DNA from: an uncultured Spirochaetaceae bacterium
Lineage (GTDB): Bacteria > Spirochaetota > Spirochaetia > Sphaerochaetales > Sphaerochaetaceae
Direction of reading: 5' to 3'
Assembly (NCBI GenBank): GCA_944390015.1
Contig: CALXOL010000009.1
Span: forward strand, 1-64,000
DNA length: 64,000 nt
Under the pieces are notes generated by a model. The model was not told the origin of the DNA. It worked only from the letters and a program-made list of their open reading frames with translations, and searched no databases. Shown in pieces: positions 12,144 to 40,968 of the stretch; position 1 is the stretch's first letter; the number at the start of each line of letters is the position of its first letter. Position numbers and translations under genes: made by a program.

Positions 12144-13760
12144 TTATGATGCGTTTTCGTTTTTGTCTAAATGCTCTTCTAAAAAACTAATGTACTGCTG
12201 CATCCAGTTTGCAAAGTGATTAGGAGAAAGATTTAATGATTTAAAGAAATTCCAATGTTTTTTTGCATTTTCAATATCTCCAATTTCAAAATAAATCTTT
12301 GCCAATTCAATACTTATTGATACTTTTTCTGGTATTCGGCCCCAGGAATCAATTATTCTTGATATTTTGTGTGATTGAGAGATGATAATATCTTTATATG
12401 GGGAATACATATTTTCTTTATGGACAGGAATGTAATATAAAATATGTATTTTGTCTGGTGTCGGTATTGCAAAAGAACATGGAATTATGTATTTTCTCTT
12501 TAATTCTTGGTAACATATATTTTCCCCGTAGAAGGTCTTAGTTATTATGTTGCATGGTGCGGTGCATTCATCAAGAAGTAGCATTTCTACATTGTTTATT
12601 GCTGTAAGATTTAATCCTGCCTTGTATAGTGTATCGGCATAATCATGGAAAAGATTAATATTTTTATTGATGAAAGCTTGTTTGTCTTTATGTTTTAATA
12701 TGGAGATTTTGATGTTCATCAATTCCGCATATTTATAGACTTCACAAGGATCAATGGAGCTTAATAGTTTATCTATATCGGAGAGGGCATCTCCTGCATA
12801 ATAATTTGATATGCTATCATATAAACCTTTAAAGTTAGTCTCTTTTAATAGCGGAGCAAAGGTTTCTTGATTTAAAATTCCCCAGTATTCATGAATTACT
12901 TTGAACCTTTCATAGGTTGTAAGTATTTCAAAATCTTTTACATTATTTGATATGTTTTCGAGTAGCCATTCGTAGTTAAATCGGCCATTCATCACCATTC
13001 GAAATGTCGATACTGTTAGTAATATTTTTTCTTTCTTCGATAATTGGGGAAATAGATTTTCATAAGCAGTTTTATATGTTTCAAATATTTTATTTTCATT
13101 TTTCAATTGTCTATAATAAACAGTAATTGTGTTCATTAGATTTATGTAATTAAAGATTGAATATAAAGGCCGAATAATTTTTGATAGATCGCTTATCACG
13201 GTTTCTGCTTCTTCATAATATCCATCCTGCAAAAGTGCTAAAGATAATCTTTCTGCTATTTTGAAAACTATTAAAGTGTTATTAAATTGTTTTTTAATAA
13301 TTTCCCAGGAATATCTATAGCTTCTAATTCGCTCATTTCTGTTATTGCTAACATAATAAGTAAATAAGCCATAATAAAAGTTGATTTCTACCTTTTCTGA
13401 AGCTGATGTTTTTTTGCTTTCTATTAATGCCTTTGCTTTTACTATGTATTTGTAGCTTTTCTTTAAATTCCCAAATTCATAGTAGATTTTCCTGTATAGT
13501 AAATAAACTCTTGAGTCTTTTAAGTCTTCAACCAACTTTTCTGGTATTGTTTCTTTTGCCGCATTTAAATTTCCAAGTTGCACCAGTAGCTTAGCTTTAG
13601 TTATGTCAGCTTCTTTCTTTTCACATGGATATAATTTATCATCCAATTCTGTAAGAAGATTTAGTGCTTGTAATGCCTCTCCCCGCTGAGCAAGACAGTT
13701 TATCTTTAAAAACATATATTCAATTTTTAATGTAGTTGTTTGGAAAATAGCTTTAAACAA
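12144..13760 (-). CDS. tetratricopeptide-repeat protein, C-terminal part of a frameshifted gene
   Basis: 538 codons of alpha-helical repeats; examples are INCLAQRGEALQALNLLTELD, AKLLVQLGNLNAAKET and IYFEIGDIENAKKHWNFF, typical TPR-like helices. Enzymatic motifs are absent. The only start is TTG right after an in-frame TGA, with no Shine-Dalgarno. In the next frame immediately upstream (13761 to about 14010) lies coding-like sequence with two membrane helices and a basic juxtamembrane segment leading straight into this frame, so the natural protein was probably a membrane-anchored TPR protein of about 650-680 residues. Function unknown; possibly a signalling or scaffold protein. Confidence 0.55.
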   Translation of the reverse strand: MFKAIFQTTTLKIEYMFLKINCLAQRGEALQALNLLTELDDKLYPCEKKEADITKAKLLVQLGNLNAAKETIPEKLVEDLKDSRVYLLYRKIYYEFGNLKKSYKYIVKAKALIESKKTSASEKVEINFYYGLFTYYVSNNRNERIRSYRYSWEIIKKQFNNTLIVFKIAERLSLALLQDGYYEEAETVISDLSKIIRPLYSIFNYINLMNTITVYYRQLKNENKIFETYKTAYENLFPQLSKKEKILLTVSTFRMVMNGRFNYEWLLENISNNVKDFEILTTYERFKVIHEYWGILNQETFAPLLKETNFKGLYDSISNYYAGDALSDIDKLLSSIDPCEVYKYAELMNIKISILKHKDKQAFINKNINLFHDYADTLYKAGLNLTAINNVEMLLLDECTAPCNIITKTFYGENICYQELKRKYIIPCSFAIPTPDKIHILYYIPVHKENMYSPYKDIIISQSHKISRIIDSWGRIPEKVSISIELAKIYFEIGDIENAKKHWNFFKSLNLSPNHFANWMQQYISFLEEHLDKNENAS

Positions 13761-14177
13761 TCAGCTTGAACTATATTCAGTATGGAATCTTTCTCCAACA
13801 ATATCTGCTCATTTAATTTGCGCAATATTCTATTTCTTATACCTCCGTTAAATAATGGACGTAGACTTCTGAGATAATAAATGAAGTATATAATTAAAGT
13901 TCCAATAACTACCAGAAAACTCTGAAGATTAATTATATTGAAATATTTAAAGATTAATGGGATGGTTGATATAGCAACAAAGTATTTAAGACAGAAGTAT
14001 TTTCTTCCATTTCAAAATGCGGTAAAAGGCATCCTTTTTCTGAAATTGAAGTAATCCAAACGGATAAGATGAAATCATATATTTAATGGCGTGAATGGAT
14101 TCTGGCACTTTCAAAATCTGAAAGACATAAAAGCAAAAGTTATTTCTTTCCTTTGAAGAACGCAATATAAGGTTCAT
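13761..14177 (-). pseudogene. 5' part of the TPR membrane protein gene, broken by frameshifts
   Basis: Minus-strand reading from 14177 (MNLILRSSKERNNF...) runs to a stop at 13986. A shift of one base in the GAAAA run near 13998-14001 would continue into YFCLKYFVAISTIPLIF, then a second helix (SFLVVIGTLIIYFIYYL) and RNRILRKLNEQILLEKDS. A second shift near 13740-13760 joins the TPR frame. Seen: coding-like sequence with helices but no start codon of its own. Inferred: one gene with two indels, either real decay or assembly error. Confidence 0.45.
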
Positions 14178-14413
14178 TCTATTTTCTAAATGGCATTGTG
14201 ATGAATGATTGATTCCATGATATGAACTGAATGGGGAGGGTAGGAAATAAGATATTCCTACAAAGAAATTGTCAATTTTCCTGACTTTATGGAGGAAAAC
14301 CGCCTTTGTTCGGCTGGGGCAATCTGTTGGCTAACATTTTCATATTTTGTAGAAATTGGCTAAGACTGATTAGTCTATCTCCATGACAGGCTTAAAGTTG
14401 TTTTCCTTGCTAT
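14178..14413. other. region with no supportable gene
   Basis: Non-coding or decayed sequence upstream of the frameshifted TPR gene. A minus-strand frame stays open here for some distance without a Met and could be further 5' sequence of that gene. A short palindrome AGACT-GATT-AGTCT is present. No recognisable promoter. Confidence 0.4.
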
Positions 14414-14680
14414 TTATAATTCCGCCTCTTTTGCCCCATTAATTTCATAGACCAAAATGCTTTTAAGTAACTTGGAAATGGTTTTTAAGGATATATTTAA
14501 AAACAACGCTAGTATGTACGTTTTAATGTTTAGATACTTCGTGTTGAGACAAAGGATGCAGATTATAGCAACAAGCCAAATACAACATAATATTAATATT
14601 GTCCATAAGATTAATTTCTTATTATTAGTAACATTTTTTTTCGAGTTTTTTACTCTTTTATATTTCAAAGTTTTTTTCAT
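14414..14680 (-). CDS. possible small single-pass membrane protein
   Basis: 88 codons: a strongly basic N-terminus (MKKTLKYKRVKNSKKN) followed by one or two hydrophobic helices (LILWTILILCCIWLVAIICIL, then YILALFLNISL). The pattern is protein-like but no Shine-Dalgarno precedes the start, there is no family resemblance, and the opposite strand also has a similar-sized frame. Treat as doubtful. Confidence 0.25.
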   Translation of the reverse strand: MKKTLKYKRVKNSKKNVTNNKKLILWTILILCCIWLVAIICILCLNTKYLNIKTYILALFLNISLKTISKLLKSILVYEINGAKEAEL

Positions 14681-14791
14681 GCTTTGATGATATTGTTGTG
14701 GTAATAACCTATCGAGCAGATAAATGTATAAACTTAATAAACTGTATAAGCTTGCTTTTTTTGATAAAATAGAAAAGGAAAGGAATAATAA

Positions 14792-17446
14792 ATGGACAAA
14801 GCTTGTGATGACAATTCTTTAAGGCTTGTTGGGGGAACGTATTTCAACCTTATACTAAGAGGTAAAAAAATAAAACTGGATAATGGAAGTGTTCCTAGTG
14901 AAAGCGAGATTTTTGCGGGGCTTCTTAATGTGTTTGGTGCTGATGTTAATATAGAGAATTTTAAATTATCAGAACAGAGAAGTTTTGCAGAGAAAGTATC
15001 AAACTTGAAATTATGCCGCAAGTCATCCTTTTCAAAAAGCTATCTCGGATATTCAAGATTGGAAAAGATAAAACAAGGAGAATGGGGTTCGGCTCTGACC
15101 AGAATGGAGAGTTTTCTCTCTATTTATGTAGAGAAAAATGGAATCTCTTTAATTGTTTCATCTTTGGCAGAATTGATAAAAAAAGATTCAACTATAGCAG
15201 ATGAGCAAGCGTTCGTTTATTTGGATGGAAGAGCTCCTTTATCAAAAAGAGATATAATAACTCAAAAACGCTTTCCCTTTGTTGGTTTTATTTTAGGTGC
15301 AGGGGTATTTGCTTTTCAACAAGATAATAAATGTGGGGAAGATACGATTGATCAATGGCTTCGTGTAAAAGATAAGAAAAGTCAATTTATAGCGCGTTTT
15401 GGATTTAAAAATATTACTTCTTTTGTAGATACCTTAGACCCTTATATGGAATGGCAAGAACATAAGAAGGAGCTGGAAGAAGATTCGAAAGATAGAAAAC
15501 TTGTGTATAGAATCACAGATGATGATTTTAGTGCTTTGATGAAACAAGCTGAAGATAATCCAGAACTGTATCAATTTGCGATGGATATTGAACGTAATCG
15601 CAATATTTATGTGCAAACAAATCTTTTTAAAGAAACTTTTAATAAAGTTATGGATTTGAACTATGTTATGCTTTCAGGAAACCCAGGAAGCGGTAAGACT
15701 TTGACATCAGAGATGGTTGCATTAAAAATCGCAGGACTTGGAGAATATCGTTTACATTATGCAAAAGCCTCTGAAAGTGACTTAGAGAAAATATTATCTT
15801 TGATTACTGATAAAAAAGAAATATTAAGAAAAGAATTTATATTGATAGATGATTGTATGGGGCAGGCTAGTTATGACCTAAGTCAGAAGGAAGAGAATAA
15901 TTTAAAAAAATTGGTAGCTTTTGTAAAATTTAAAGCACCAAGAAAAAAGTTACTTTTGAATTCTAGAATAAAGGTCTTGAACGATGCAAAACAACATGAT
16001 ATTTATAACTCCATTTTTGAAGAAATGATTAATACGGAGCGGATTATAGACACAAATAAGCTCACAAGGAGAGAAAAAGCATTAATACTTCGTAAACATG
16101 TTTTTGCAAGAACAGATAATGAGCATTATTTGGATCTCAGGGGTAAGCGATGCTTAAATATTATAGATCACAACCCGTATATTCCTAGAGTTATAAGTCA
16201 CGTAACTCGAAAACAAAAGAAATTCTGTAAAATAGAAGATGGGGCTTTTTATTCGGAAATAATGAATGCTTTAAATAACCCAGATTCCGTATGGAGAAAA
16301 ATATATGAAGATGATAGAGCAACCCCTCTCATTTGCCGATTATTACTAAAGTCTTTGTATTCTTTGACAAACAATACCTGCCGAGTAGAAGAATGTAAGG
16401 CAGTTTTTGAAAAATATGTTCAAATGGAAATGAAGCCTGATACCACTATTAATCTTTGGGAAAAGGCGTTATCGGCATTAAATGAGTCCATGGTAAAGAG
16501 ACTGAAGACAAATGATGGCGATTTTATTGGTTTTATAGACCCTTCCGTTCATGATTTTTTGGAGAAGTCAATTTATTATGATCACTCGTCAATAGAATAT
16601 AAGTCATTGGAAAATGGAATAATTTATAGCAAGCAAATTGTGCAGATTTTTGGATATGGAGAGTTGAGTTTTGAAATAAAAAATCAGATGGTTATAGATG
16701 GTCGATTGGCAAAACTTATGTATGATGCAGAGTATTTAAAAGAACGAGATATATTTATTCAGATTTCAACAACATGTTGTTGTCGGGATGAGTATATACC
16801 AATTGTCAGGAAAATGCTTTACCTTCCCAATAAGATGAATTATTCCAGGACTTATTTTATGAAAACAGAATGTGAATATGATTATCCTAATTTCCTATTT
16901 AGCTTAATAAAGTCAGAGAAAATGAGGGAGTATTATCTATATGGGAGAATCAACAGGGAGGTATTTTACTCTTGCATTGCAGGCATTAATATTAAAGATG
17001 CGTGTAAGATTTTAATACAATGTCTTAAGAACCCAAAGAGTTTTTCATTTCCCATTGATGAAAATGTTTTGATTAAAATAATGGAAACAGCTGCAGCTAA
17101 TTCTCTTAATGAATGGCAAGATGAAATTGATTATATAAGTATAGATGACAATATTTCTTTGGCTGAGAAAAATGATTTGCTCCAGCAAAGGGTATTGGAG
17201 AGGTGTTTAGAGGACGTTGATTATTATTCTACGGATATGCCAGAAGATGTTTATAATTCTTTTAATTTCATAATAGAGCAAACTCCAATTCCTGATTTTT
17301 CTGAAGAAATATCAGGCTATTGTGAAGATTTATTAGATGAGTATGACGATGGCTGGCATGGCGAAATAGAAGAACAGGAATGCGATGTTGGAAACAGTGA
17401 TGAAGAAATTATGGCATTATTTTCCGTTCCATTCCCCGAGAAATGA
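14792..17446 (+). CDS. nSTAND3-like NTPase, candidate defence/signalling protein
   Basis: 884-residue protein. The central P-loop NTPase has Walker A GNPGSGKT near residues 296-303 and Walker B FILIDDCMG near 349-357. It then has the arginine-containing LLLNSRIKVL segment and an all-helical extension with TRREKALILRKHVF and NPYIPRVI, the layout of the novel STAND-3 NTPases seen in bacterial conflict and regulated-cell-death proteins. The first ~260 residues match no family I recognise and would be the effector or sensor; the C-terminal ~350 residues are helical and end in an acidic tail. GGAAAGGAAT precedes the ATG. Monocistronic, ended by a terminator, in an AT-rich accessory region. Anti-phage function is inference from architecture. 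Confidence 0.65.
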   Translation: MDKACDDNSLRLVGGTYFNLILRGKKIKLDNGSVPSESEIFAGLLNVFGADVNIENFKLSEQRSFAEKVSNLKLCRKSSFSKSYLGYSRLEKIKQGEWGSALTRMESFLSIYVEKNGISLIVSSLAELIKKDSTIADEQAFVYLDGRAPLSKRDIITQKRFPFVGFILGAGVFAFQQDNKCGEDTIDQWLRVKDKKSQFIARFGFKNITSFVDTLDPYMEWQEHKKELEEDSKDRKLVYRITDDDFSALMKQAEDNPELYQFAMDIERNRNIYVQTNLFKETFNKVMDLNYVMLSGNPGSGKTLTSEMVALKIAGLGEYRLHYAKASESDLEKILSLITDKKEILRKEFILIDDCMGQASYDLSQKEENNLKKLVAFVKFKAPRKKLLLNSRIKVLNDAKQHDIYNSIFEEMINTERIIDTNKLTRREKALILRKHVFARTDNEHYLDLRGKRCLNIIDHNPYIPRVISHVTRKQKKFCKIEDGAFYSEIMNALNNPDSVWRKIYEDDRATPLICRLLLKSLYSLTNNTCRVEECKAVFEKYVQMEMKPDTTINLWEKALSALNESMVKRLKTNDGDFIGFIDPSVHDFLEKSIYYDHSSIEYKSLENGIIYSKQIVQIFGYGELSFEIKNQMVIDGRLAKLMYDAEYLKERDIFIQISTTCCCRDEYIPIVRKMLYLPNKMNYSRTYFMKTECEYDYPNFLFSLIKSEKMREYYLYGRINREVFYSCIAGINIKDACKILIQCLKNPKSFSFPIDENVLIKIMETAAANSLNEWQDEIDYISIDDNISLAEKNDLLQQRVLERCLEDVDYYSTDMPEDVYNSFNFIIEQTPIPDFSEEISGYCEDLLDEYDDGWHGEIEEQECDVGNSDEEIMALFSVPFPEK

Positions 17447-28469: not shown

Positions 28470-28736
28470 ATGCCGGAATTAAGTCGTTTTTACGGAATTG
28501 TTATTAAGATGCTTTATGAAGTAGGGGCAAAACATAACAAGCCTCATATTCATGTTGAATATGGAGAATATGAAGCTTCAGTAGGGATTGACGGAGAAGT
28601 CCTTGCTGGTGTATTGCCGGAGAAACAATATAAGCTTGTGGCTGCATGGTTAGCATTGCATGAAGATGAGCTTTATGAAGCTTGGAATAATGCTGTGCAG
28701 ATGAAACCAATGAGCAAGATCATGCCTTTGATCTGA
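28470..28736 (+). CDS. DUF4160 domain protein
   Basis: 88-residue DUF4160 protein: MPELSRFYGIVIKM, then HNKPHIHVEYGEYEASVGIDG, with the conserved His-rich PHIHVEY motif, and a C-terminal WLALHEDELYEAWNNA helix. GAGGGAG precedes the ATG. It directly precedes a DUF2442 gene, a pairing common in bacteria and proposed, not proven, to be a type II toxin-antitoxin-like module. Cytoplasmic, biochemical activity unknown. Confidence 0.85.
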   Translation: MPELSRFYGIVIKMLYEVGAKHNKPHIHVEYGEYEASVGIDGEVLAGVLPEKQYKLVAAWLALHEDELYEAWNNAVQMKPMSKIMPLI

Positions 28737-28747
28737 TGGAGGTTAAG

Positions 28748-29041
28748 ATGTTTTTTGCAAATGGAATGGTATATGGTGGTACGCCAAAAGAAATGATGAA
28801 AATAGTAGCCGTAAAACCTCTTGAGAATATGACAATGATTCTAACATTCAATTCAGGAGAACAGAGGCTATATGATGCAACAGAACTTCTGAAATACCCA
28901 ATATTCCAAGTCTTGAAAGACAAAGAGGTGTTTTTGCATCCTGTACTGGATCATGGTGTCGTTACTTGGAATAACGGATCTCTCGATCTTTCACCTGAAG
29001 CGATGTATGAAAACAGTTTTCCTTATGAAAAGAGGGCATAA
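28748..29041 (+). CDS. DUF2442 domain protein
   Basis: 97-residue DUF2442 protein: VKPLENMTMILTFNSGEQRLYDATELL, then HPVLDHGVVTWNNGSLDLSPEAMY, matching the family's core. ATG 28748 is preferred because GGAGGT lies five bases upstream; ATG 28736 overlaps the DUF4160 stop but has no ribosome site. Partner of the preceding DUF4160 gene; probably a small regulatory or antitoxin-like protein. Confidence 0.83.
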   Translation: MFFANGMVYGGTPKEMMKIVAVKPLENMTMILTFNSGEQRLYDATELLKYPIFQVLKDKEVFLHPVLDHGVVTWNNGSLDLSPEAMYENSFPYEKRA

Positions 29042-30517: not shown

Positions 30518-32167
30518 ATGTTGAATAAAATAAGCCTTCCTATTGGAACGGCAGGTTTTGAGAGCATAAGAGAGAATGGATATTACTACATAGATAAGAC
30601 AAATCTCATAAGCGAGCTTATAAGAGATAGTTCGACATCTCTTTTATTCACTCGTCCAAGACGATTTGGAAAGACAACAGTCATGACTATGCTTTCTTCT
30701 TTCTTTGATATTCAAAAAAATAGTAAGGCTTTTTTCTCTGGACTTTCAGTAATGAACGATGATGAGGCTGTTAATAACTGGATGAATAGATTTCCAGTTA
30801 TTTATGTATCATTCAAAGATGTGAACGGACTTACTTTCTTAGATGCCATGTCGATGCTAGGTGCAGAAATGTACAGATTATTTCAAAGGTATCAGTTCCT
30901 TCAGGATTCAAAATTCCCAGAAGGAGACCGAAAACTTATCAACGATATTTTCTCAGGGAATGCATCCGCTTTGAGTTTAAAGAAGTCTTTATCTTCTTTG
31001 GTGTGGCTCTTACATGATTACTATAAGCAAAAAGTAATCATTTTGATTGATGAGTATGATGTTCCATTAGCCTCTTCTGAGCAGAATGGATATTATGATG
31101 AGATGCTCGATGTTATTCGAGGCATGTTTTCCGTTTTAAAAGATAATGAGAATGTGGAGAAGGCTGTCTTGACTGGCTGCTTGAAGATATCGAAAGAAAG
31201 CTTATTCACAGGCCTGAATAACCTGGCTTCATATTCCCTCCTTTCTAAAAAATACGCTTCTTATTTCGGCTTTACAGACGGCGAGGTCGATTCTCTTCTC
31301 TCTGATGTGGGGCTGATGAATAAGAAAGATGTGTTCTTAAATTGGTATGATGGATACCAAATCGGAGGGATTTCAATATTCTCATCTTGGGACGTCATAT
31401 CTTATGCAAACGATCTTCAGTCTGATTGCAATACTCTTCCTAGAAACTATTGGGCGAATACAAGTAGTAATAGTATAATCCGTAAGTTCATTGATCTTAC
31501 AAATGCTTCTATTGCAGATGAGTATGAAGCACTGATTTCCGGTAATGTAATCTATAAGAGGATATCTGAGAATGTTACATATAATGATCTGTATTCATCT
31601 ATAGATAATGTGTGGTCTTTGATGTTTGAAACCGGGTATCTGACTTTAGCTGGTGGATATGATGAGAATAATCCATCACCGCTGAGAATTCCAAATGAGG
31701 AGATACGGAATCTTTTCATTACTACGGTAAACAGGTGGTTTGAAGATTCCATACGGAAAGAAGACAGGACAAAACTTTTTACCGCTTTGTTCTCGGGCGA
31801 TGAGTCATCCCTTTCTGAAATGATTTCAGACTATCTTGAAGAGACCATAAGCTATTATGATTATAGTGAGGATTTCTATCATGCTTTCGTTGCAGGTCTT
31901 TTCTCTTCAGTGAATTATTATGTCAAATCCAATAGGGAGGCAGGAACGGGCAGATATGATCTTATTGTAGCCGATAGAAAGAACAAGAAGATTGCCATAT
32001 TGGAATTTAAAGCTGTGAAGAAGGATTCAGAAATAAAGAAGGCATTAAGCCGGGCATTAGTTCAAATCGATGAGAAAGCTTATGATTTTGATTTCAGGCG
32101 ATATTCTCTTCTGCGGTATGCCGTAGTATTTTATAAAAAAAGTGCGAGTGTCCTGCTAAAGAAATAA
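30518..32167 (+). CDS. AAA-ATPase_like / PDDEXK_9 protein (DUF1703 type)
   Basis: 549-residue protein of a family that is strikingly multiplied in spirochaetes and Bacteroidetes. N-terminal AAA-ATPase_like domain: ENGYYYIDKTNLI, FTRPRRFGKTTVMTML as the P-loop region near residue 50, and VIILIDEYDVPL as Walker B near 170. The C-terminal PD-(D/E)XK nuclease-like domain has AGTGRYDLIVADRKNKKIAILEFKA, giving the D...ExK catalytic signature. GAAAGGAG precedes the ATG. Role unknown; host-factor, mobile-element or defence functions have been suggested. A paralogue lies at 37169. Confidence 0.85.
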   Translation: MLNKISLPIGTAGFESIRENGYYYIDKTNLISELIRDSSTSLLFTRPRRFGKTTVMTMLSSFFDIQKNSKAFFSGLSVMNDDEAVNNWMNRFPVIYVSFKDVNGLTFLDAMSMLGAEMYRLFQRYQFLQDSKFPEGDRKLINDIFSGNASALSLKKSLSSLVWLLHDYYKQKVIILIDEYDVPLASSEQNGYYDEMLDVIRGMFSVLKDNENVEKAVLTGCLKISKESLFTGLNNLASYSLLSKKYASYFGFTDGEVDSLLSDVGLMNKKDVFLNWYDGYQIGGISIFSSWDVISYANDLQSDCNTLPRNYWANTSSNSIIRKFIDLTNASIADEYEALISGNVIYKRISENVTYNDLYSSIDNVWSLMFETGYLTLAGGYDENNPSPLRIPNEEIRNLFITTVNRWFEDSIRKEDRTKLFTALFSGDESSLSEMISDYLEETISYYDYSEDFYHAFVAGLFSSVNYYVKSNREAGTGRYDLIVADRKNKKIAILEFKAVKKDSEIKKALSRALVQIDEKAYDFDFRRYSLLRYAVVFYKKSASVLLKK

Positions 32168-32218
32168 AAGTAGTTTGATCAATAATGATTTTTTAGAGTG
32201 AAATAGGGGTAAATCAGG

Positions 32219-32230
32219 TTACTATAGTAA
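32219..32230 (+). promoter_or_regulatory. palindrome overlapping -10 of the SWIM gene
   Basis: TTACTATAGTAA, a perfect 12-bp palindrome containing TATAGT (32223-32228), four bases before ATG 32233. There is no Shine-Dalgarno, so the transcript may be leaderless, and a protein bound to the palindrome would block initiation. Confidence 0.45.
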
Positions 32231-32232
32231 TC

Positions 32233-33852
32233 ATGATTATAAATGATTCATGGCAAGAAGTATTCAGTAACAGGGTATTATCAAAGGGTTATGATTATTA
32301 CCTTTCAGGCTGTGTTCGCCATGTAAGAAAGATAGAGTATGGATATGAAGCGAATGTCCGAGGCTCTTATGAATATGATGTTTCCGTAAGTATCAAAGAT
32401 GGAGAGCTTATTGATGCTGATTGTACCTGCCCATATTCTGCGGAAGGAAACTTTTGTAAGCATGAAGCAGCTCTTCTTTATTATCTGGAAGATGAAGGGG
32501 ATGAAGAAACAGACGAAGATGGCTCTGCCTCGGATGAAATAATAGAGATATTGAATGCATTAAGTCGCGCTGAGATGAAAAACATTCTTCTTTCCCTTTC
32601 TGCTGAGAATCAAGCTGTAAGAGATAAGCTTTATGGACATAGTAAGAAACTTTTACCCATGCAGAGAAAAGATCTTCTTAGTGAGGCTCGTTCGTATTTT
32701 TCATATATGGATGATAAAGGGTATTATGATGAAAATAAGATATATAGGGCAATAAGAGATTTTTCAAAATTCTTAGATTCTAAAATTAGACCTCTTCTTG
32801 ATGATAAGCATTGGTATTCAGACGTATTCTCTCTTGTTATAGTATTGCTTAAAGAATTTCCAAGTTCTACCTTATATGATTATGGCTGGGACTCGGCTTC
32901 CGATTTAGAAAATGAATTGGATGATTTGCTCTCTTCATCTTATCTTCAGGCCCCTGATGATATCAGGATCAATATAGAAAAAGAAGCAAGAAGGCTTTAT
33001 GAAAAGGATTCAGATTGGATTATTAAGGACTTTCTCATATATACAGTCAAAGATAGAAAACTTGCGGAAAAGAAATTAAAAGCGATAAGAGAAAGAAATG
33101 ATGAAGAGTGGATGCGTCCAGTAGATGATGAACTGGCATTAATGAAAATCCTTGATTACAAAGAAAAAGACATCCTTTCCTGGATGTATGATAATATCGA
33201 AAATTACAGAATACAATCTCTTCTTTTCTCACACCTATTGGCTAATGGTAAGTGGAAGGATTGTATTGATGCTTTGCTTCTTTGTAAGAGCAAGTTTGGA
33301 TTGAATGATGATCAGAGTAAGCTATTGAAATCGCTTTATAGAGATCATGATATGTTTGATGATTTGATTGCTTTTCTCAAAGATGAAATATGCAATACCA
33401 CGCAATACGATTTAACGAATATAAAGGAACTTAAGACCTTGCTTGATGCAGATGAATGGGCGCAATTCTCTTTTGATTTGAAGAAAAGAGACAGCATATT
33501 CAAGATAAAAGGGGATTATCTGGCATATGTTGAGGATTGGAATGCTTTAATGAAATACATTGAAAACGAAAGGAGTATGCAATCTCTTGATTCAATTAAC
33601 AGATATGGCGATATTCTTATTCGGCATTTTCCAGAACGTATGCTTACAATCTACGAGAAGGTAGCTGATTCAATTGCTTCGACAATGCATGACAGAGCCG
33701 GTTATTCTTATTATGTATCATGGTTGAACAGGATGAGAAAAACAGAGGAAGGGAAAAAGAGGGCAGAAGAAAAAGCTCTCCAGATAATAGAGAAGATGTC
33801 AAATCGAAGAGCATTAAAGGATGAACTTAGAAAAGCTGGATACATATCATAG
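32233..33852 (+). CDS. SWIM zinc-finger domain protein
   Basis: 539-residue protein with an N-terminal SWIM zinc finger: DADCTCPYSAEGNFCKHEAALLYY near 60-80 gives the C-x-C-x(n)-C-x-H pattern. The preceding segment (VLSKGYDYYLSGCVRHVRKIEYGY) is also typical. After an acidic linker the remainder is helical, repeat-like, of unknown function. SWIM proteins are commonly found next to SWI2/SNF2 or other helicases and bind DNA or protein. It precedes a DUF6429 gene and the TOTE-like primase-helicase, with short spacings. No Shine-Dalgarno before ATG 32233. Confidence 0.82.
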   Translation: MIINDSWQEVFSNRVLSKGYDYYLSGCVRHVRKIEYGYEANVRGSYEYDVSVSIKDGELIDADCTCPYSAEGNFCKHEAALLYYLEDEGDEETDEDGSASDEIIEILNALSRAEMKNILLSLSAENQAVRDKLYGHSKKLLPMQRKDLLSEARSYFSYMDDKGYYDENKIYRAIRDFSKFLDSKIRPLLDDKHWYSDVFSLVIVLLKEFPSSTLYDYGWDSASDLENELDDLLSSSYLQAPDDIRINIEKEARRLYEKDSDWIIKDFLIYTVKDRKLAEKKLKAIRERNDEEWMRPVDDELALMKILDYKEKDILSWMYDNIENYRIQSLLFSHLLANGKWKDCIDALLLCKSKFGLNDDQSKLLKSLYRDHDMFDDLIAFLKDEICNTTQYDLTNIKELKTLLDADEWAQFSFDLKKRDSIFKIKGDYLAYVEDWNALMKYIENERSMQSLDSINRYGDILIRHFPERMLTIYEKVADSIASTMHDRAGYSYYVSWLNRMRKTEEGKKRAEEKALQIIEKMSNRRALKDELRKAGYIS

Positions 33853-33865
33853 CAGGAGGAAAAAG

Positions 33866-34135
33866 ATGAAAGAAAAGATTACTGCAAAAGACGCAATGAA
33901 AGATCTCATATTGATGTTGATGTATTTATCAAGGATCACGGAAGAGAAAGATTTTCAGAGTGCAAAGGATTTCTATGCGTGGAAAACATATGATTTCGAC
34001 ACTGTGGATGCTCTTGAAAACGAAGGACTTGTCTACCAGGGAAAGAAATCATGGAAAAGAGTTATTCTTGAAGAGAAGGGAATTGAAAGAGCAAAATTAT
34101 TACTTGAAAAGTATGGAATAGAGGATTGGCATTAA
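33866..34135 (+). CDS. DUF6429 family protein
   Basis: 89-residue protein beginning MKEKITAKDAMKDLILMLMYLSR and ending in a predicted winged-helix-like part (WKTYDFDTVDALENEGLVYQGKK, ILEEKGIERAKLLLEKYGI). This agrees with DUF6429, a small family frequently annotated next to SWIM-domain genes. ATG 33866 follows AGGAGG; an open frame upstream lies within the SWIM gene. Probably cotranscribed with the SWIM gene 13 bp upstream. The fold suggests a nucleic-acid-binding accessory. Confidence 0.75.
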   Translation: MKEKITAKDAMKDLILMLMYLSRITEEKDFQSAKDFYAWKTYDFDTVDALENEGLVYQGKKSWKRVILEEKGIERAKLLLEKYGIEDWH

Positions 34136-34163
34136 AGTCAGAGAAAAGTGATATTGTATCTTT

Positions 34164-37115
34164 ATGAAAGGGGAAAGTACATCTTTATTCATTGATTCCA
34201 TGTCCCTTAAGGATGATGGGGTAGTTCTTAATGAGAACGCATTAAAAGAAAGACTTTTAAAAAACGAAGAAGAGATTAGAAGTCTTTTATTTAGACTAAA
34301 TGAGCTGAGGAAAGAGAATAAAGGTCTTAAAGCTCTTGTTAGTGATGATAAAATCCCTCCATTAGCTTTAGAAAAAAGGGAAACTATAGGGGATAGTGCT
34401 GCAGACAAGGCCTCTTTCTTATTATCTTTATTTTCTCCTCGTACAGATGTATATGCTACCCGTAGATATAATAAAGAATTATCAAAGGCATCATATTTCC
34501 CCAAATGTTTTAATTTCTGGAAGGATGGATGTCTGAGAAAATCAGGTGAAAAAGGTAGGGATACATGTGGTCTCTGCGATTTAAAGAAATATGATGAATT
34601 GACATACGAGAAAATCATAAGAGGTAATTTCCTTAATACTGATGAGAATGGATCTGGTGCGATTGGAGTTTACCCTTTAAAGGATGGTAATGTCACAAGA
34701 TTTGTCGCAATAGATCTAGATGAAGGTAAGTGGCAGAGGGATGCTGCATTCATACTTTCAACTGCAAGAAGAGCTGGTATCTCCATGATTGAGGAGAGAA
34801 GTTTCAGCGGTAATGGTGCTCATCTATGGATTTTATTCTCCGAAGACGTTTCCGCTAAGAATGCTCGTCGCCTTGCTTTTGCTGTTATAGATAAAGCACG
34901 AGAGGAACATTCTGGGATGAGTCTTTCCTCATATGATAGATTGTTTCCTTCTCAGGATTCTCTCTCTGACGGTGGAATTGGTAATCTGATTCTTCTACCT
35001 TTGGTTGCTTCTGCCGCAGTGCGTGGTTCGACGCTTTTCTTAGATGAAGATGGAAATCCTTATCCGCCCGATAAACAACTTGATTATCTAGCTTCTGTAC
35101 ACCGCCATACAGAGGAAGAATTAAATGATTTGATTTCGACTCTTACTTCATCATATTTAGCTGAAGATAACTTCATACTATCCGATGATGATATTAATCC
35201 CGGCTGGAATCGAAGGATTCCTAAGATTTCTTCGTCCGATATCAACGGAGAATTAATCTTATACTTATCCTCTGGCATAAGTTTTGATAAACTTGTCATG
35301 TCTTCTAAAATGCAGGAGGCGTTAAGGCGTTTTGCTACAATCTCAAATCCTGAATACTATAAAAATCTTTCAAGAGGTGATGGATACACAAAGGTTCCAT
35401 CTAGAATTCCTCTTTATGAAGAGAATGAGCGTGTGCTTAAACTTCCACGAGGATTGCTTCAGGGAATAAAGAAACTGCTTGATATGAGAGATATAAAATA
35501 CAGGATTGAAGATCATCGCATATGTAAAACAGGACTGGATGTTTCATTCAACGGCGTATTGAGAATTGAACAGGATGCGGCATTAAAGCAAATGCTGAAT
35601 AATGATATTGGTATCCTTTCAACAGCTACGGGTTTTGGAAAAACAGTCGTTGCGCTCTCTTTGATTGCCTCTCGGAAAGAGAGAGCGATGATTATCGTCA
35701 GTTCTGAAGCTTTGCTTTCTCAATGGGAGGATGCGGCTAATTCGTTTTTGGACATAAGGACAATTCCCAGTGCTGCTAGAAAAAGAAAGGAGTTGAACCC
35801 TTCTATAGGTGTGCTTTCCGGGAGTAAGAAACGTATTTCCAGCGTTGTAGACATAGTAATGTTGCAGAGCCTTGCTTCTGCTATGGAGAGAGGAAATTTT
35901 GATTTTGCTCTTTCCTACGGCATGGTAATTGTTGATGAGTGCCATCATATTGCCGCAGAGAAATCCAGGTTCGTATTAAGCCGTTTGAATGCGAAATACG
36001 TGTATGGTCTTTCTGCAACTGTGAAAAGAAGGGATGGGCTAGAAAGAATTGTATATTCAGAATGTGGAAATATAATTTACTCCTATGATGCTGCTAAGCT
36101 TTCATACGAGAGAGGAATAAAACAGCAGTATATAACACGATTCTTGGGAACCAACATTGCTAAGGTAAACAAATTCACATCATTTTCAATGATCTTGGAT
36201 GAGCTATCAAATGATGAGGAGAGAAACAAGCAGATTGCATCAGATATCGCATCTGCCTATGAAAAAGGACGAAAAATCATTGTTTTTACCAGAAGACTTT
36301 CACAGAACAATTCTATTGGCAATGTTTTAAAGGAATTAATGATTCCACATGTCTTATTAGATGGGGGAAAAAGTAAAAGTATTATAAAAAGAACTTTGTC
36401 CGATTTGAGAGTAAAGTCCAATCCAGAGGTTCTTATTTCAACAGATATGTTACTAGGAGAGGGTGTGGATATTCCGAATCTGGACACTCTTTTTCTCTCT
36501 TCCCCATATATGCAGGAGAGGGTTATTCAACAGTGTGCGGGAAGGTTATCAAGATCTGCAGAAGGGAAAGAATCCACATTGATTTATGATTATGTGGATT
36601 ATAGAATTCCTCGGCTCAGCTATATGTACACTAAAAGGTTATCAATTTACAGGAAACTTGGGTTTATTCCATTATCTGATGAGAAGATGCCTTATGAGAA
36701 ACTTCTATATGATGATTCGGATTTCTTGGATTCTCTCCTTTCGGATATCATAAAGGCTACTGATGAAATCATACTTTCCACATCGTTCTTGCTCCCTTCT
36801 TTTGTAACGAAAAAGATATTCAAAGGTCTTTTGGCTAAATCATCTTCTCTTCGTGTGATTCTCTATGGTAGGAGTAACTTGAATGCGAAAATAGAAATTG
36901 AGAACGAGAAGCTTATCAAAGAAAGTGGGATTAATTATGTAAGTGTTGATACTCCCAGAAATTTTGTTGTAATCGATAAATGTATAAGCTGGTATGGTGA
37001 AATGAACATACTGGGACAGAGCAAGGCAAATGGAAATGAGCATAAAAGTATATTACGTATCATCGACTCTGAAACAGCAAAGTGTCTTATTGAAGGCTAT
37101 GCTGAATTGCTTTAA
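34164..37115 (+). CDS. TOTE-type primase-helicase with PLD-like C-terminus
   Basis: 983 residues. Order: N-terminal coiled coil (25-60); Cys cluster Cys115, Cys123, Cys135, Cys138; archaeo-eukaryotic primase-like domain with FVAIDLDEG (Asp184, Asp186) and ERSFSGNGAHLWILF; SF2 helicase with ATGFGKT near 487-493, IVDECHHIAA, GLSATVKRRDG, ISTDMLLGEGVDIPNLDTL and QQCAGRLSRS; then a PLD-like tail (EIILSTSFLLP, ISWYGEMNILGQSKANGNEHKSILRI). This matches primase-helicase proteins of TOTE conflict systems. In the tail the usual His of HxK is replaced (NFVVIDK), so the nuclease may be dead. TGATATTGT lies six bases before ATG, without Shine-Dalgarno. Likely acts on foreign or replicating DNA. Confidence 0.8.
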   Translation: MKGESTSLFIDSMSLKDDGVVLNENALKERLLKNEEEIRSLLFRLNELRKENKGLKALVSDDKIPPLALEKRETIGDSAADKASFLLSLFSPRTDVYATRRYNKELSKASYFPKCFNFWKDGCLRKSGEKGRDTCGLCDLKKYDELTYEKIIRGNFLNTDENGSGAIGVYPLKDGNVTRFVAIDLDEGKWQRDAAFILSTARRAGISMIEERSFSGNGAHLWILFSEDVSAKNARRLAFAVIDKAREEHSGMSLSSYDRLFPSQDSLSDGGIGNLILLPLVASAAVRGSTLFLDEDGNPYPPDKQLDYLASVHRHTEEELNDLISTLTSSYLAEDNFILSDDDINPGWNRRIPKISSSDINGELILYLSSGISFDKLVMSSKMQEALRRFATISNPEYYKNLSRGDGYTKVPSRIPLYEENERVLKLPRGLLQGIKKLLDMRDIKYRIEDHRICKTGLDVSFNGVLRIEQDAALKQMLNNDIGILSTATGFGKTVVALSLIASRKERAMIIVSSEALLSQWEDAANSFLDIRTIPSAARKRKELNPSIGVLSGSKKRISSVVDIVMLQSLASAMERGNFDFALSYGMVIVDECHHIAAEKSRFVLSRLNAKYVYGLSATVKRRDGLERIVYSECGNIIYSYDAAKLSYERGIKQQYITRFLGTNIAKVNKFTSFSMILDELSNDEERNKQIASDIASAYEKGRKIIVFTRRLSQNNSIGNVLKELMIPHVLLDGGKSKSIIKRTLSDLRVKSNPEVLISTDMLLGEGVDIPNLDTLFLSSPYMQERVIQQCAGRLSRSAEGKESTLIYDYVDYRIPRLSYMYTKRLSIYRKLGFIPLSDEKMPYEKLLYDDSDFLDSLLSDIIKATDEIILSTSFLLPSFVTKKIFKGLLAKSSSLRVILYGRSNLNAKIEIENEKLIKESGINYVSVDTPRNFVVIDKCISWYGEMNILGQSKANGNEHKSILRIIDSETAKCLIEGYAELL

Positions 37116-37156
37116 CGAAATAAGATTGAGAGGATTCAAATTTGAATGGAGTTTGC

Positions 37157-37162
37157 TATAAT
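37157..37162 (+). promoter_or_regulatory. -10 element of a leaderless candidate
   Basis: Perfect TATAAT ending six bases before ATG 37169, with TTCAAA 16 bp upstream (37135-37140). Transcription would begin at or next to the start codon; no Shine-Dalgarno is present. Confidence 0.5.
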
Positions 37163-37168
37163 ATTGTT

Positions 37169-38767
37169 ATGAAGAGACAGATATCGACAGCAACATCGGA
37201 TTTTAGACAGCTGATAAAAGCGGGATACCTTTACATAGATAAGACAATGTATGTTTATCAGATGGTGAGGGAGAGCCTCCAGAACTACTTCTTCATCTCC
37301 CGTCCTAGGCGATATGGAAAGAGTCTCTTCTGCTCAACGTTGGAATACCTATTCAAAGGGGAAAAAGATCTTTTCAAAGGACTATATATTGCGGAGAAGA
37401 CAAGCTACTCGTTCGAGAAGTACCCCGTGCTGCATTTCAACTTCTCACTTCTAAACACATCATCGTTCGAGTCCTTCCTCTCAGGATTTGAGGACATGAT
37501 AGCGGAAAAGGCAAATGAGAATGGAATAGGGCTTGAGAAGAACCTACCATCATACATGCTCATGGAGTTCCTTAAAAAGAGCAAGAAGGAGAGTGTGATA
37601 ATAATCGACGAGTTCGACTCCCCTATAATAGATAGTCTTAACGACAGTGAGAAGCTTGAAAGGATAAGGAGCGAATTCTCATCGTTCTACTCCGTGATAA
37701 AGAACACAGGTAGCAAGGTGCGCTTCTTATTCATAACTGGAGTCACGAAGCTCTCGAACATGTCCATCTTCTCCAAGATGAACAACCTTACTGATGTATC
37801 GATGAGGGCAGAGTATGCATCTGCATTCGGATACACTGAAAATGAACTTGCAAAGAATTTCAAGGAGTACATGGAGGACTATCTCTCATCAGATGATTGT
37901 CAGTATAAAGATAGGGCGGAGTTCCTTTCGGATATAAGGGACTACTACGACGGATACAGATTCTCACCTGATGTGGATGAGAAGGTGTACAATCCAGTGT
38001 CTGTCGGAATGTTCTTCACAAATTCATGCAGGTTCAACAACTACTGGGAACTTACGGGAGTCTCAACTCTTGCTGTCGAAATGGCGAAGAGGTTCAATCT
38101 AATAAATTTAACAGCCGGTGAGATAATAGTCGGTTTGGAGGCGGTCACAAGCTTCGATATCTCACTACTTGCAGAGAGCACGCTGCGCCTTTCAAGCATC
38201 TATGCACTCCTCTACTATACGGGGTATCTTACGATAAAAGATGGTGACTATGATGCACTTGTACTGCAATTTCCGAACAAGGAGATAGCAAAGACATTTA
38301 CAGCATCATTAATCACAAGATACATGGATCCATCATATGATTTGGGTTCAATAATTCATAGTACCAAAAGGGCATTGGTGAAAGGTGATGTTCCTGCATT
38401 TATTTCAAGGCTTCAGGAATACTACGAGTCATTCCCATATGATCTGCTCGATAAGGATAAAGAGAAGAGCTATCAGCTACTGTTCCATGCGTTCTTTGTA
38501 GCTTCTGGCATGGAAGTAACGGCCGAAGACCATAACCTCAGAGGTAGAGCTGACAATGTGATTAAAACGAAGAGTAACATATATATTTGTGAACTCAAAG
38601 TTGATAAGAGTGCGGACGAAGCTTTAGCTCAAATAAAGGAAAGAAGATACTATGAGAAGTACATTCCATTGTGTAGAAATGAAAACATCAAACTGCACCT
38701 TGTAGGAATAAACTTCTCATCAGAAAAGAGGGCTATAGAAGATTATAACGAGGAGATAATTCTTTAG
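37169..38767 (+). CDS. AAA-ATPase_like / PDDEXK_9 protein, second copy
   Basis: 532 residues from ATG 37169 (an upstream TTG is less likely because it precedes the -10 element). N-terminal AAA-ATPase_like domain: FRQLIKAGYLYIDKTMYVY, FISRPRRYGKSLFCSTL (P-loop), ESVIIIDEFDSPI (Walker B). C-terminal PDDEXK_9: HNLRGRADNVIKTKSNIYICELKV (D...ExK signature). It differs strongly from the copy at 30518, so not a recent tandem duplication. The first ~1.1 kb looks richer in G/C and in C/G-ending codons than the last ~450 bp, suggesting recombination between family members. Function unknown. Confidence 0.85.
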   Translation: MKRQISTATSDFRQLIKAGYLYIDKTMYVYQMVRESLQNYFFISRPRRYGKSLFCSTLEYLFKGEKDLFKGLYIAEKTSYSFEKYPVLHFNFSLLNTSSFESFLSGFEDMIAEKANENGIGLEKNLPSYMLMEFLKKSKKESVIIIDEFDSPIIDSLNDSEKLERIRSEFSSFYSVIKNTGSKVRFLFITGVTKLSNMSIFSKMNNLTDVSMRAEYASAFGYTENELAKNFKEYMEDYLSSDDCQYKDRAEFLSDIRDYYDGYRFSPDVDEKVYNPVSVGMFFTNSCRFNNYWELTGVSTLAVEMAKRFNLINLTAGEIIVGLEAVTSFDISLLAESTLRLSSIYALLYYTGYLTIKDGDYDALVLQFPNKEIAKTFTASLITRYMDPSYDLGSIIHSTKRALVKGDVPAFISRLQEYYESFPYDLLDKDKEKSYQLLFHAFFVASGMEVTAEDHNLRGRADNVIKTKSNIYICELKVDKSADEALAQIKERRYYEKYIPLCRNENIKLHLVGINFSSEKRAIEDYNEEIIL

Positions 38768-39092: not shown

Positions 39093-39854
39093 TTAATATA
39101 TAAATTTATCTGGATGTTTGTTTATTAGGGTAAAGAATGTAGTAGGATTGTAGTCTATAATCAATAGAATGAGTGTATTAAGGACATAAATGTTTTTAGT
39201 TGTGCAGTAGTAGTCCAATTCTTTCTTATATATTTCAGTCCAATCTATTGATAGATACTCTTCTTTTGTCGGGATCCTGTTCTCTCCTGTCATAATATGC
39301 CAGGCTTTTTTTAGGTTATGAACGGCTACTTTTAAATATGTGTTATATCCATATTTCGACAAATCACCTAACGTACTTTCTTGGCTTACTAGTTCTTTAT
39401 AGCCAATGGGCGAGGCTATTCTTGTTATATAATTAAAATCTGGAAGAGCTTTCAGATGCCTATAGGATTGCATCATAGGATAGTTGATATATAACTTTCC
39501 CATGTCAGAGGATTCAATGTAGTAGGATAGCATTCTTTTTACCGTTTCAAAATCTGGGGCATCATGCTGTGCTTCGAAATCAAAAGCAAGAATTATATCG
39601 GAAAATTTACCTGACAATAGCTTCTTTTTGTCAGGGGCAATTTCCATATCGCGTAAAATAAGGGCAATTTCTGTGTTCCCAGAATCAAAGTCCTGGTAAT
39701 CCTTTCTTAGCTTTGCTGCCAATGTATGAATTGTCGTGTTATAGGAATAAATTTCATATTTGTCGAGAGGAAATGTCTTTTTCATCATGAGGCGAAGGAA
39801 TTTAGGCTCATCAGAGATGCCTTCACATATAAACAGAATTTTTCTTTTATACAT
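39093..39854 (-). CDS. TOPRIM-like protein paired with AAA15 ATPase, candidate defence effector
   Basis: 253 residues from the ATG at 39854. An N-terminal TOPRIM-like core begins KRKILFICEGISDEPKFL (Glu11), followed by IILAFDFEAQHDAPDFE (Asp92, Glu94, Asp98) and YINYPMMQSYRHL. This resembles RloB/AriB-like and other TOPRIM nucleases encoded beside OLD-type ATPases. The start at 39854 overlaps the ATPase stop by eight bases (ATGTATAA) and puts the beta-strand right at the N-terminus; the longer frame from 39917 lies wholly inside the ATPase gene. Predicted toxic nuclease or nickase released or activated by the ATPase. Function is inferred by architecture. Confidence 0.65.
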   Translation of the reverse strand: MYKRKILFICEGISDEPKFLRLMMKKTFPLDKYEIYSYNTTIHTLAAKLRKDYQDFDSGNTEIALILRDMEIAPDKKKLLSGKFSDIILAFDFEAQHDAPDFETVKRMLSYYIESSDMGKLYINYPMMQSYRHLKALPDFNYITRIASPIGYKELVSQESTLGDLSKYGYNTYLKVAVHNLKKAWHIMTGENRIPTKEEYLSIDWTEIYKKELDYYCTTKNIYVLNTLILLIIDYNPTTFFTLINKHPDKFIY

Positions 39855-40968
39855 CCAACCCGCCACCTCGGTAAATTTTCTCCAAATTGTGTCCTTCTCG
39901 AATTTCTTTTCCTCCAACTAGGTCAATATATGGTTTCAGTATTCCTTTCTTCATAATCAAATAGCAGTCGGGGCGGAGAATCTCATTGCCCATCAATGAT
40001 GTATTATGAGTTGTGAATACCGCTTGCATTTTTGTATATGTTTTTAAAATCTCAATTATTTTCAAAGACAGCTCAAAATGGTAATAGGCATCAAATTCAT
40101 CCATGAATAACAGCGATACTTCGTTGAACTTCTTCATCCAGAAAAAGAACAATTCAGCCGCACTGGTTCCGCTTGAGTAGGACTGATTGAATATCAGTTT
40201 TCCATTATCATGATTTTCGATTATAATCTGTCTATTGTCAGGCAGAGTAGCTGTGCTGAGTTTCACATCAAGGCCACAGACATTGATAAGAAAATCATTA
40301 TAATCCTTGATAAGTCCATTTCTGATGATCCAATCTTCAATTAGTGTAATACTATTGTCAAAGCCGATGAATGCGTTCTGCCTTATTGACCTGAACCACA
40401 GCATATGTGAGACAAAATCCATGATGGATTTTATTGGAGAGTCGTTTTTCAATGCACTGTTATTTGCTATGTATCTAAGAACTGATAATTTCCCGTTAAG
40501 GTATGTGAAGTTAAGGTTTTCATTTATTAAATCTTTTGTATTCAACGTTGAGAAGTCGTTTTTTAAATAGTCGTAATCATATATTGCAATATCATTTACA
40601 ATGAGTTTCTCTTTTAATAAGGAATTATCTGCTGCTTTAAAGTATTCAAATTTATAGTTATCTTTTCCATTCACAAATTCATAGGAAAAAGAAGCAGAAG
40701 ATGTTTTTTTATCGAGATTAAGAAAATTGCCATTGTTTGTAATTTCTGGATCAATAAATTTATCAGTAAGCAAAGGCACAATATTAAAAAGTGCAATTCC
40801 TAAATTGCTTTTTCCTGACCCATTAACTCCATATATTCCAAACTTTGTTATGATTCCGTCATCTACGCATTCAGTGCTGAATTTATAGTCATGCACGGCC
40901 GTGAAATCAAGAGTTACTGGATTTTTGAAATTACGGAAACCAAATACGGTAAACTTGGCAAGTTTCAT
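39847..40968 (-). CDS. AAA15/OLD-like ABC-type ATPase, candidate defence sensor
   Basis: 373-residue SMC/ABC-like ATPase of the AAA_15/AAA_21 group (RloA/AriA/AbiL-like). N-terminal beta FTVFGFRNFKNPVTLDF, Walker A GVNGSGKSNL (47-56), a signature-like SSGTSAAELFFFW near 270, Walker B SLLFMDEFDAYYHFELS near 290, and H-loop AVFTTHNTSLM. AGGAGG precedes the ATG, and TTGACA lies further upstream beside an 11-bp inverted repeat. Overlaps the TOPRIM gene, so the two are translationally coupled. Such pairs (PARIS, RloAB, some Abi systems) block phage growth; which, if any, this one is cannot be told here. Confidence 0.72.
   Translation of the reverse strand: MKLAKFTVFGFRNFKNPVTLDFTAVHDYKFSTECVDDGIITKFGIYGVNGSGKSNLGIALFNIVPLLTDKFIDPEITNNGNFLNLDKKTSSASFSYEFVNGKDNYKFEYFKAADNSLLKEKLIVNDIAIYDYDYLKNDFSTLNTKDLINENLNFTYLNGKLSVLRYIANNSALKNDSPIKSIMDFVSHMLWFRSIRQNAFIGFDNSITLIEDWIIRNGLIKDYNDFLINVCGLDVKLSTATLPDNRQIIIENHDNGKLIFNQSYSSGTSAAELFFFWMKKFNEVSLLFMDEFDAYYHFELSLKIIEILKTYTKMQAVFTTHNTSLMGNEILRPDCYLIMKKGILKPYIDLVGGKEIREGHNLEKIYRGGGLDV

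Follow-up and report, generated by a model that had tools for sequence, protein, structure and literature searches.

The 64,000-nucleotide stretch analyzed here (the window; contig CALXOL010000009.1, positions 1 to 64,000) derives from the genome of an uncultured, gut-type Spirochaetaceae bacterium (2.19 Mb, 95% complete; labelled G000 in comparisons with congeners). It contains a gene for a large primase-helicase preceded by genes for a SWIM zinc-finger protein and a DUF6429 protein, which together form a candidate three-gene cassette. Open reading frame calls and a Pfam scan place these within a run of five closely spaced genes on the forward strand, spanning 30518-38767, in the following order:

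30518..32167, + strand: AAA-ATPase_like and PDDEXK_9 (DUF1703) protein, upstream copy (Pfam 4e-44 and 3e-16)
32233..33852, + strand: SWIM zinc finger with a predicted TPR-like alpha-solenoid of ~430 residues (PF04434 5.7e-5, residues 52-85)
33866..34135 (first called 33821-34135), + strand: DUF6429, 89-residue predicted winged-helix protein (PF20008 1.5e-18)
34164..37115, + strand: 983-residue primase, SF2 helicase and degenerate PLD/HKD-fold domain (AEP-TOTE 7.9e-60, ResIII/Helicase_C)
37169..38767 (first called 37142), + strand: AAA-ATPase_like and PDDEXK_9 (DUF1703) protein, downstream copy (Pfam 5.7e-49 and 1.8e-15)

A first-pass annotation of this DNA had placed the five genes correctly, with the exception of two start codons. 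The DUF6429 gene probably begins at ATG 33866 and not at 33821, because a ribosome-binding AGGAGG is found at 33855 and this start falls 13 bp past the SWIM stop codon; the downstream AAA gene probably begins at ATG 37169, not TTG 37142. The short spacings reported in that annotation were confirmed, with 13 bp separating SWIM from DUF6429 and 28 bp separating DUF6429 from the primase. AEP-TOTE and DUF6429 each occur as one copy in the genome, and high copy number therefore does not account for their adjacency. Four genomic matches to AAA-ATPase_like were found, two of them fragments. Promoters and terminators were predicted no more frequently than in shuffled sequence.

The 983-residue protein is, as first described, a fusion of an AEP primase with an SF2 helicase. 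The AEP-TOTE primase-polymerase (Prim-Pol) domain (PF22548) spans residues 82-322 and scores 203 bits against a cut-off of 27, while the helicase occupies about residues 463-815 (ResIII 7e-19; ResIII and Helicase_C at 466-797 by Pfam). The nearest profile matches of the primase region are the CRISPR-associated Prim-Pol (CAPP) structures 7nqd and 7nqf (2.6e-24), and those of the helicase region are XPB-II/RAD25 structures (XPB-II 1e-35). The PADLOC PrimPol model also matches the protein (3.5e-53), as does the NCBIfam CAPP type A1 model NF040561, the latter at 66.5 bits (1.7e-18), under its equivalog cut-off of 200 bits. Across more than 100 homologs, D184/D186 (DxD), H220, the Walker A GKT (492-494) and DECH (591-594) are conserved in all or nearly all sequences having the position, and four zinc-type cysteines (115, 123, 135, and 138) in nearly all. 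Read from this alignment, the catalytic motifs of the Prim-Pol and of the XPB-like SF2 translocase are intact.

The C-terminal 165 residues adopt a PLD/HKD fold: a profile that includes the window protein detects NucT, Nuc, and mitochondrial cardiolipin hydrolase (3e-4 to 1e-3). Pfam PLD models pick up relatives but not the window protein itself, and the PLDc_2 cut-off is exceeded in both HKD-bearing relatives scanned. The HxKxxxxD motif is replaced by PRNFVVID (His to Pro, Lys to Asn), and no member of the window's spirochete clade retains both His and Lys. The motif is present in most Desulfobacterota relatives and in several others; Desulfobacterota, Bacteroidota, and Clostridia proteins often read HQKFAVID or similar. 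Because the catalytic His and Lys have been lost, the window domain is probably dead as a nuclease. The PLD-like C-terminus of the first-pass description thus stands as a fold, while an active PLD nuclease was rejected on account of the degenerate motif. Several relatives from Planctomycetes, Akkermansia, Lentisphaerae, and others carry a DUF559-type nuclease in place of HKD (L139 and L157 by Pfam scan; L140, L145, L149, L158, and L174 by alignment). The occurrence of an HKD, a DUF559, or a degenerate domain at the same place argues that the nuclease arm is modular.

TOTE stands for TPR, OB, TBP, Effector (PMC12458937). The AEP-TOTE effector-type primase domain of the window protein is the sole part shared with such systems. 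A whole-genome search with PF00352 (E <= 1; genome 95% complete) yielded no TBP. Nor did any TPR-OB gene turn up among the neighbors: Pfam scans at 12-44 kb returned no OB or cold-shock domain and one sub-threshold TPR ~20 kb from the cassette, no genome-wide search for TPR-OB having been made. Given a genome devoid of TBP and a neighborhood in which no TPR-OB gene turned up, the cassette is not considered a TOTE system, contrary to its original designation, and membership was rejected. Barring unrecognized proteins in the TPR, OB, and TBP roles, a bona fide TOTE conflict system, for which the 203-bit domain match speaks, is accordingly the least credible of the explanations considered, and the Pfam domain label "TOTE" should not be taken as membership of such a system.

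The closest named architecture is the third type of CAPP_A (CAPP-Helicase), in which the Prim-Pol is followed by a helicase; most non-CRISPR CAPP members have a Prim-Pol-helicase architecture and are located on mobile elements (PMC8211822). Judged by its domain layout, the 983-residue protein is a non-CRISPR relative of this type, having its helicase C-terminal to the Prim-Pol and matching CAPP structures and, below its cut-off, the CAPP model, and differing in its additional degenerate HKD domain and its SWIM and DUF6429 partners. No cas genes (Cas1-Cas2) or CRISPR lie beside the window primase among the window open reading frames scanned; no genome-wide search was made. In the congener G001 (L044:1909-12601), a primase-helicase is divergent from a type I-C CRISPR-cas operon (cas3-cas5-cas8c-cas7-cas4-cas1) located ~210 bp away, recalling CAPP primases. 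The three-domain layout of the window protein is shared by HKD/PLD-fused primase-helicases of Desulfobacterota, Bacteroidota, and Clostridia (L100-L131; 32-35% identical), many of which keep HxKxxxxD, unlike the spirochete clade.

The two genes preceding the primase encode proteins with distinct predicted folds. The SWIM motif, CxCx8CxH, is located at residues 64-77. The structural model (predicted local distance difference test score, pLDDT, 85.7) is all-helical from residue 102, and its Foldseek matches are mostly generic TPR and other helical-repeat proteins; the protein is predicted to comprise a zinc module and a TPR-like solenoid. The SWIM family was not found in viral contigs. The DUF6429 model (pLDDT 83.6) has the order helix-strand-helix-wing-helix. 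Its Foldseek matches are weak (E 0.04 or worse), several of them, including the top one, being winged helices, and a winged helix is predicted. Both products are likely to bind DNA.

The order SWIM-DUF6429-primase is repeated in the congener G010, a sister species (L045:7375-12235), where the primase is split by frameshifts. The flanks are unlike those of the window trio: upstream lie an AAA_21-RloB pair and a cadmium transporter gene, downstream an alpha/beta hydrolase gene. The G010 trio is on contig C29, whereas the oxidoreductase flanking the window trio on the left has its best G010 match on C3. This FAD oxidoreductase has no clear congener ortholog (48-52% identity), precluding an empty-site comparison. 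Between the two genomes RpoB is 93% identical, yet the primase is only 61%, DUF6429 57%, and SWIM 38% identical. That the order is kept despite this divergence and a changed site argues for a unit moving together. The primase is present in 8 of 48 genus genomes and, among the matches listed, the trio in two of those eight (G000 and G010). At 80 named loci from other phyla neither SWIM nor DUF6429 adjoins the primase, which weighs against a general association. Neighborhood statistics, put forward with the first-pass annotation as a check on its suggested SWIM/DUF6429 accessory set, therefore uphold the set within the genus, at one further site, and not beyond it; both genes also occur solo. 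DUF6429 lies ~5 kb from the primase in G058, with SWIM elsewhere, other SWIM copies of the genus are near glycosidases, and Fusobacterium has a lone DUF6429 (56% identical). In several congeners (L035:2721-6239, L037, and L039), DUF6429 directly follows a topoisomerase I (topA-type) gene and precedes a flavodoxin gene, a separate context that may be a housekeeping one.

The two AAA/PDDEXK_9 genes bracket the trio as first described, and both encode ordinary members of the DUF1703 family (PMC1913061, PMC6387759), which is expanding and spreads laterally; both keep RPRR[FY]GK[ST], DE[YF]D, and D..E[FL]K (upstream: RPRRFGKT, DEYD, D..EFK; downstream: RPRRYGKS, DEFD, D..ELK). The two proteins share 26% identity and branch apart in the DUF1703 tree, within different deep subfamilies; on these grounds they were rejected as products of a duplication or as a dedicated pair. 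The nearest relative of the upstream protein (52%) is a G001 copy on another contig, not adjoining the primase, whereas that of the downstream protein is the copy following the primase in G001 (L044; 48.8% identical). Six genomes, that of the window among them, have an AAA/PDDEXK_9 gene no more than ~0.7 kb from the primase. In four Clostridia genomes the adjoining genes belong to unrelated DUF1703 subfamilies, and two of these genomes contain just one copy. With uniform placement, roughly 0.08 such adjacencies would be expected across the 12 genomes counted, fewer than observed, though this figure ignores the clustering of mobile genes in islands and selection of the 12 genomes was partly based on the adjacency itself. 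Family expansions have been reported for DUF1703 (PMC6387759), and one genome here has 50 copies. All five genes together occur in no relative. The downstream gene is an optional neighbor and the upstream gene is probably not part of the cassette, so that the brackets are present without being fixed members of a set. The HKD motif, judged by eye on the tree, is degenerate or missing in five of the six primases adjoining AAA/PDDEXK_9 genes; this suggestive pattern is confounded by lineage, and no link between loss of the motif and the neighboring gene is claimed.

The wider setting of the family is one of conflict and mobility. Two tallies of the first neighbors of 85-86 primase relatives revealed no fixed partner but a varied set with many conflict genes; among these neighbors are AbiEi/ii, RloB, SLFN_AlbA_2, DUF4143 ATPases, restriction enzymes, integrases, and one type I-C CRISPR-cas operon. 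Primase relatives are found on 146 plasmids, 49 of them conjugative; IMG/VR contigs also encode full-length ones. Primase and RpoB identities are discordant (50% for G000/G058 at RpoB 72%, and 50% for G000/G001 at RpoB 86%), suggesting lateral transfer. Together, the conflict neighbors, plasmids, IMG/VR contigs, and RpoB incongruence support lateral mobility and a role in defense or in mobile elements. The conflict setting originally proposed is thereby borne out, in the sense of a conflict or mobile-element setting, by the relatives' neighbors, the plasmid copies, and the PADLOC PrimPol match.

The explanation tentatively preferred, at somewhat short of an even chance, is that SWIM-solenoid, winged-helix DUF6429, and primase-helicase constitute a laterally mobile three-gene cassette in a spirochete defense or mobile island, interfering with foreign DNA. 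The helicase would load on foreign or stalled DNA and expose single strand, which the Prim-Pol would prime or copy, interfering with the invader or its replication. The dead HKD domain, SWIM, and DUF6429 may be DNA-binding, sensing, or regulatory parts, SWIM perhaps as a scaffold topped by a DNA-binding zinc module and DUF6429 as a repressor or DNA adaptor; cleavage, if any, would depend on a nuclease acting in trans, possibly a neighboring DUF1703 protein. Several points weigh against this proposal: the SWIM Pfam match is weak, though its zinc ligands are invariant in seven homologs; the trio occurs in two genomes alone, among the matches listed; the genes are found apart in congeners (SWIM and DUF6429 are on different contigs in G022); and defense and mobile-element replication are inseparable by sequence and context alone. 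The same genes could instead form a module by which an integrated mobile element replicates or is maintained, with the primase-helicase priming and unwinding the DNA of that element and SWIM and DUF6429 acting as regulator and accessory. The many plasmids carrying a close architecture, the IMG/VR copies, and Phage_integrase genes as downstream neighbors of three relatives fit this explanation, as does a Thermus element in which a primase-polymerase gene affected plasmid maintenance (PMC9751324). It is nonetheless unlikely, given that the scan of genes at 28-41 kb revealed no relaxase, integrase, or rep gene and that plasmid copies adjoin toxin-antitoxin genes and accessory cargo and not a fixed replication operon.

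Also unlikely, and slightly more so, is that there is no functional unit, the genes being independent mobile genes gathered in an island hot spot and the order in two species reflecting common descent or coincidence. The absence of either partner at the 80 other loci, the solo SWIM and DUF6429 genes, and the two tallies lacking a fixed partner would be expected in that case, whereas the persistence of the order at a different site and in proteins that have diverged far more than RpoB, and the 13 and 28 bp spacings, would not. A TBP-less counterpart of TOTE-type conflict systems is an improbable proposition, in which the SWIM-solenoid and winged helix would take over DNA sensing from TPR-OB and TBP for an effector of the same primase-helicase family; the effector's own nuclease would be dead and cleavage left to any adjacent DUF1703 nuclease. 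More improbable still is a single five-gene system with both AAA/PDDEXK_9 nucleases as effectors; it can draw on the six adjacencies, with the caveats on their expectation given above, and on G150 and G152, where the adjacent gene is the sole copy in the genome, and is opposed by the divergence of the two window copies, the closer non-adjacent paralog of the upstream one, the lack of any relative with all five genes, and the copy numbers reached by DUF1703.

Beyond the three-gene cassette, two neighboring genes that are not part of it lie on the reverse strand:

39847..40968, - strand: AAA_21 ATPase (PF13304 1e-13)
39093..39917, - strand: 274-residue protein paired with the AAA_21 ATPase, TOPRIM-like on visual reading

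The partner reads 'FICEGISDE...AFDFEAQHD' and has no Pfam match; the two genes (39093-40968) are a probable two-gene defense pair. At L045, L048, and L050 the primase is flanked by AAA_21-RloB pairs resembling this one, so that the pair co-localizes with the family in several congeners. On the other side, a small DUF4160-DUF2442 gene pair (28470-29041) lies beside ~1.4 kb of low coding potential ahead of 30518, and looks like a decayed island edge. Further away, an AT-rich block (12144-17446; GC 0.28-0.33) contains a TPR-like 538-residue gene and an 884-residue nSTAND3 NTPase, possibly a further conflict gene. G040 (L047/L287), filed in the same genus, has an RpoB only 70% identical to the others, which suggests a mis-binned contig or misplaced genome.

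Helicase-fused primases of this family are present on many plasmids and in defense islands of many phyla, and no established function for them was found in the literature examined. The C-terminal nuclease of the family is swappable, being HKD, DUF559, or lost. A compact cassette in which the primase-helicase is accompanied by two predicted DNA-binding partners offers a testable unit.
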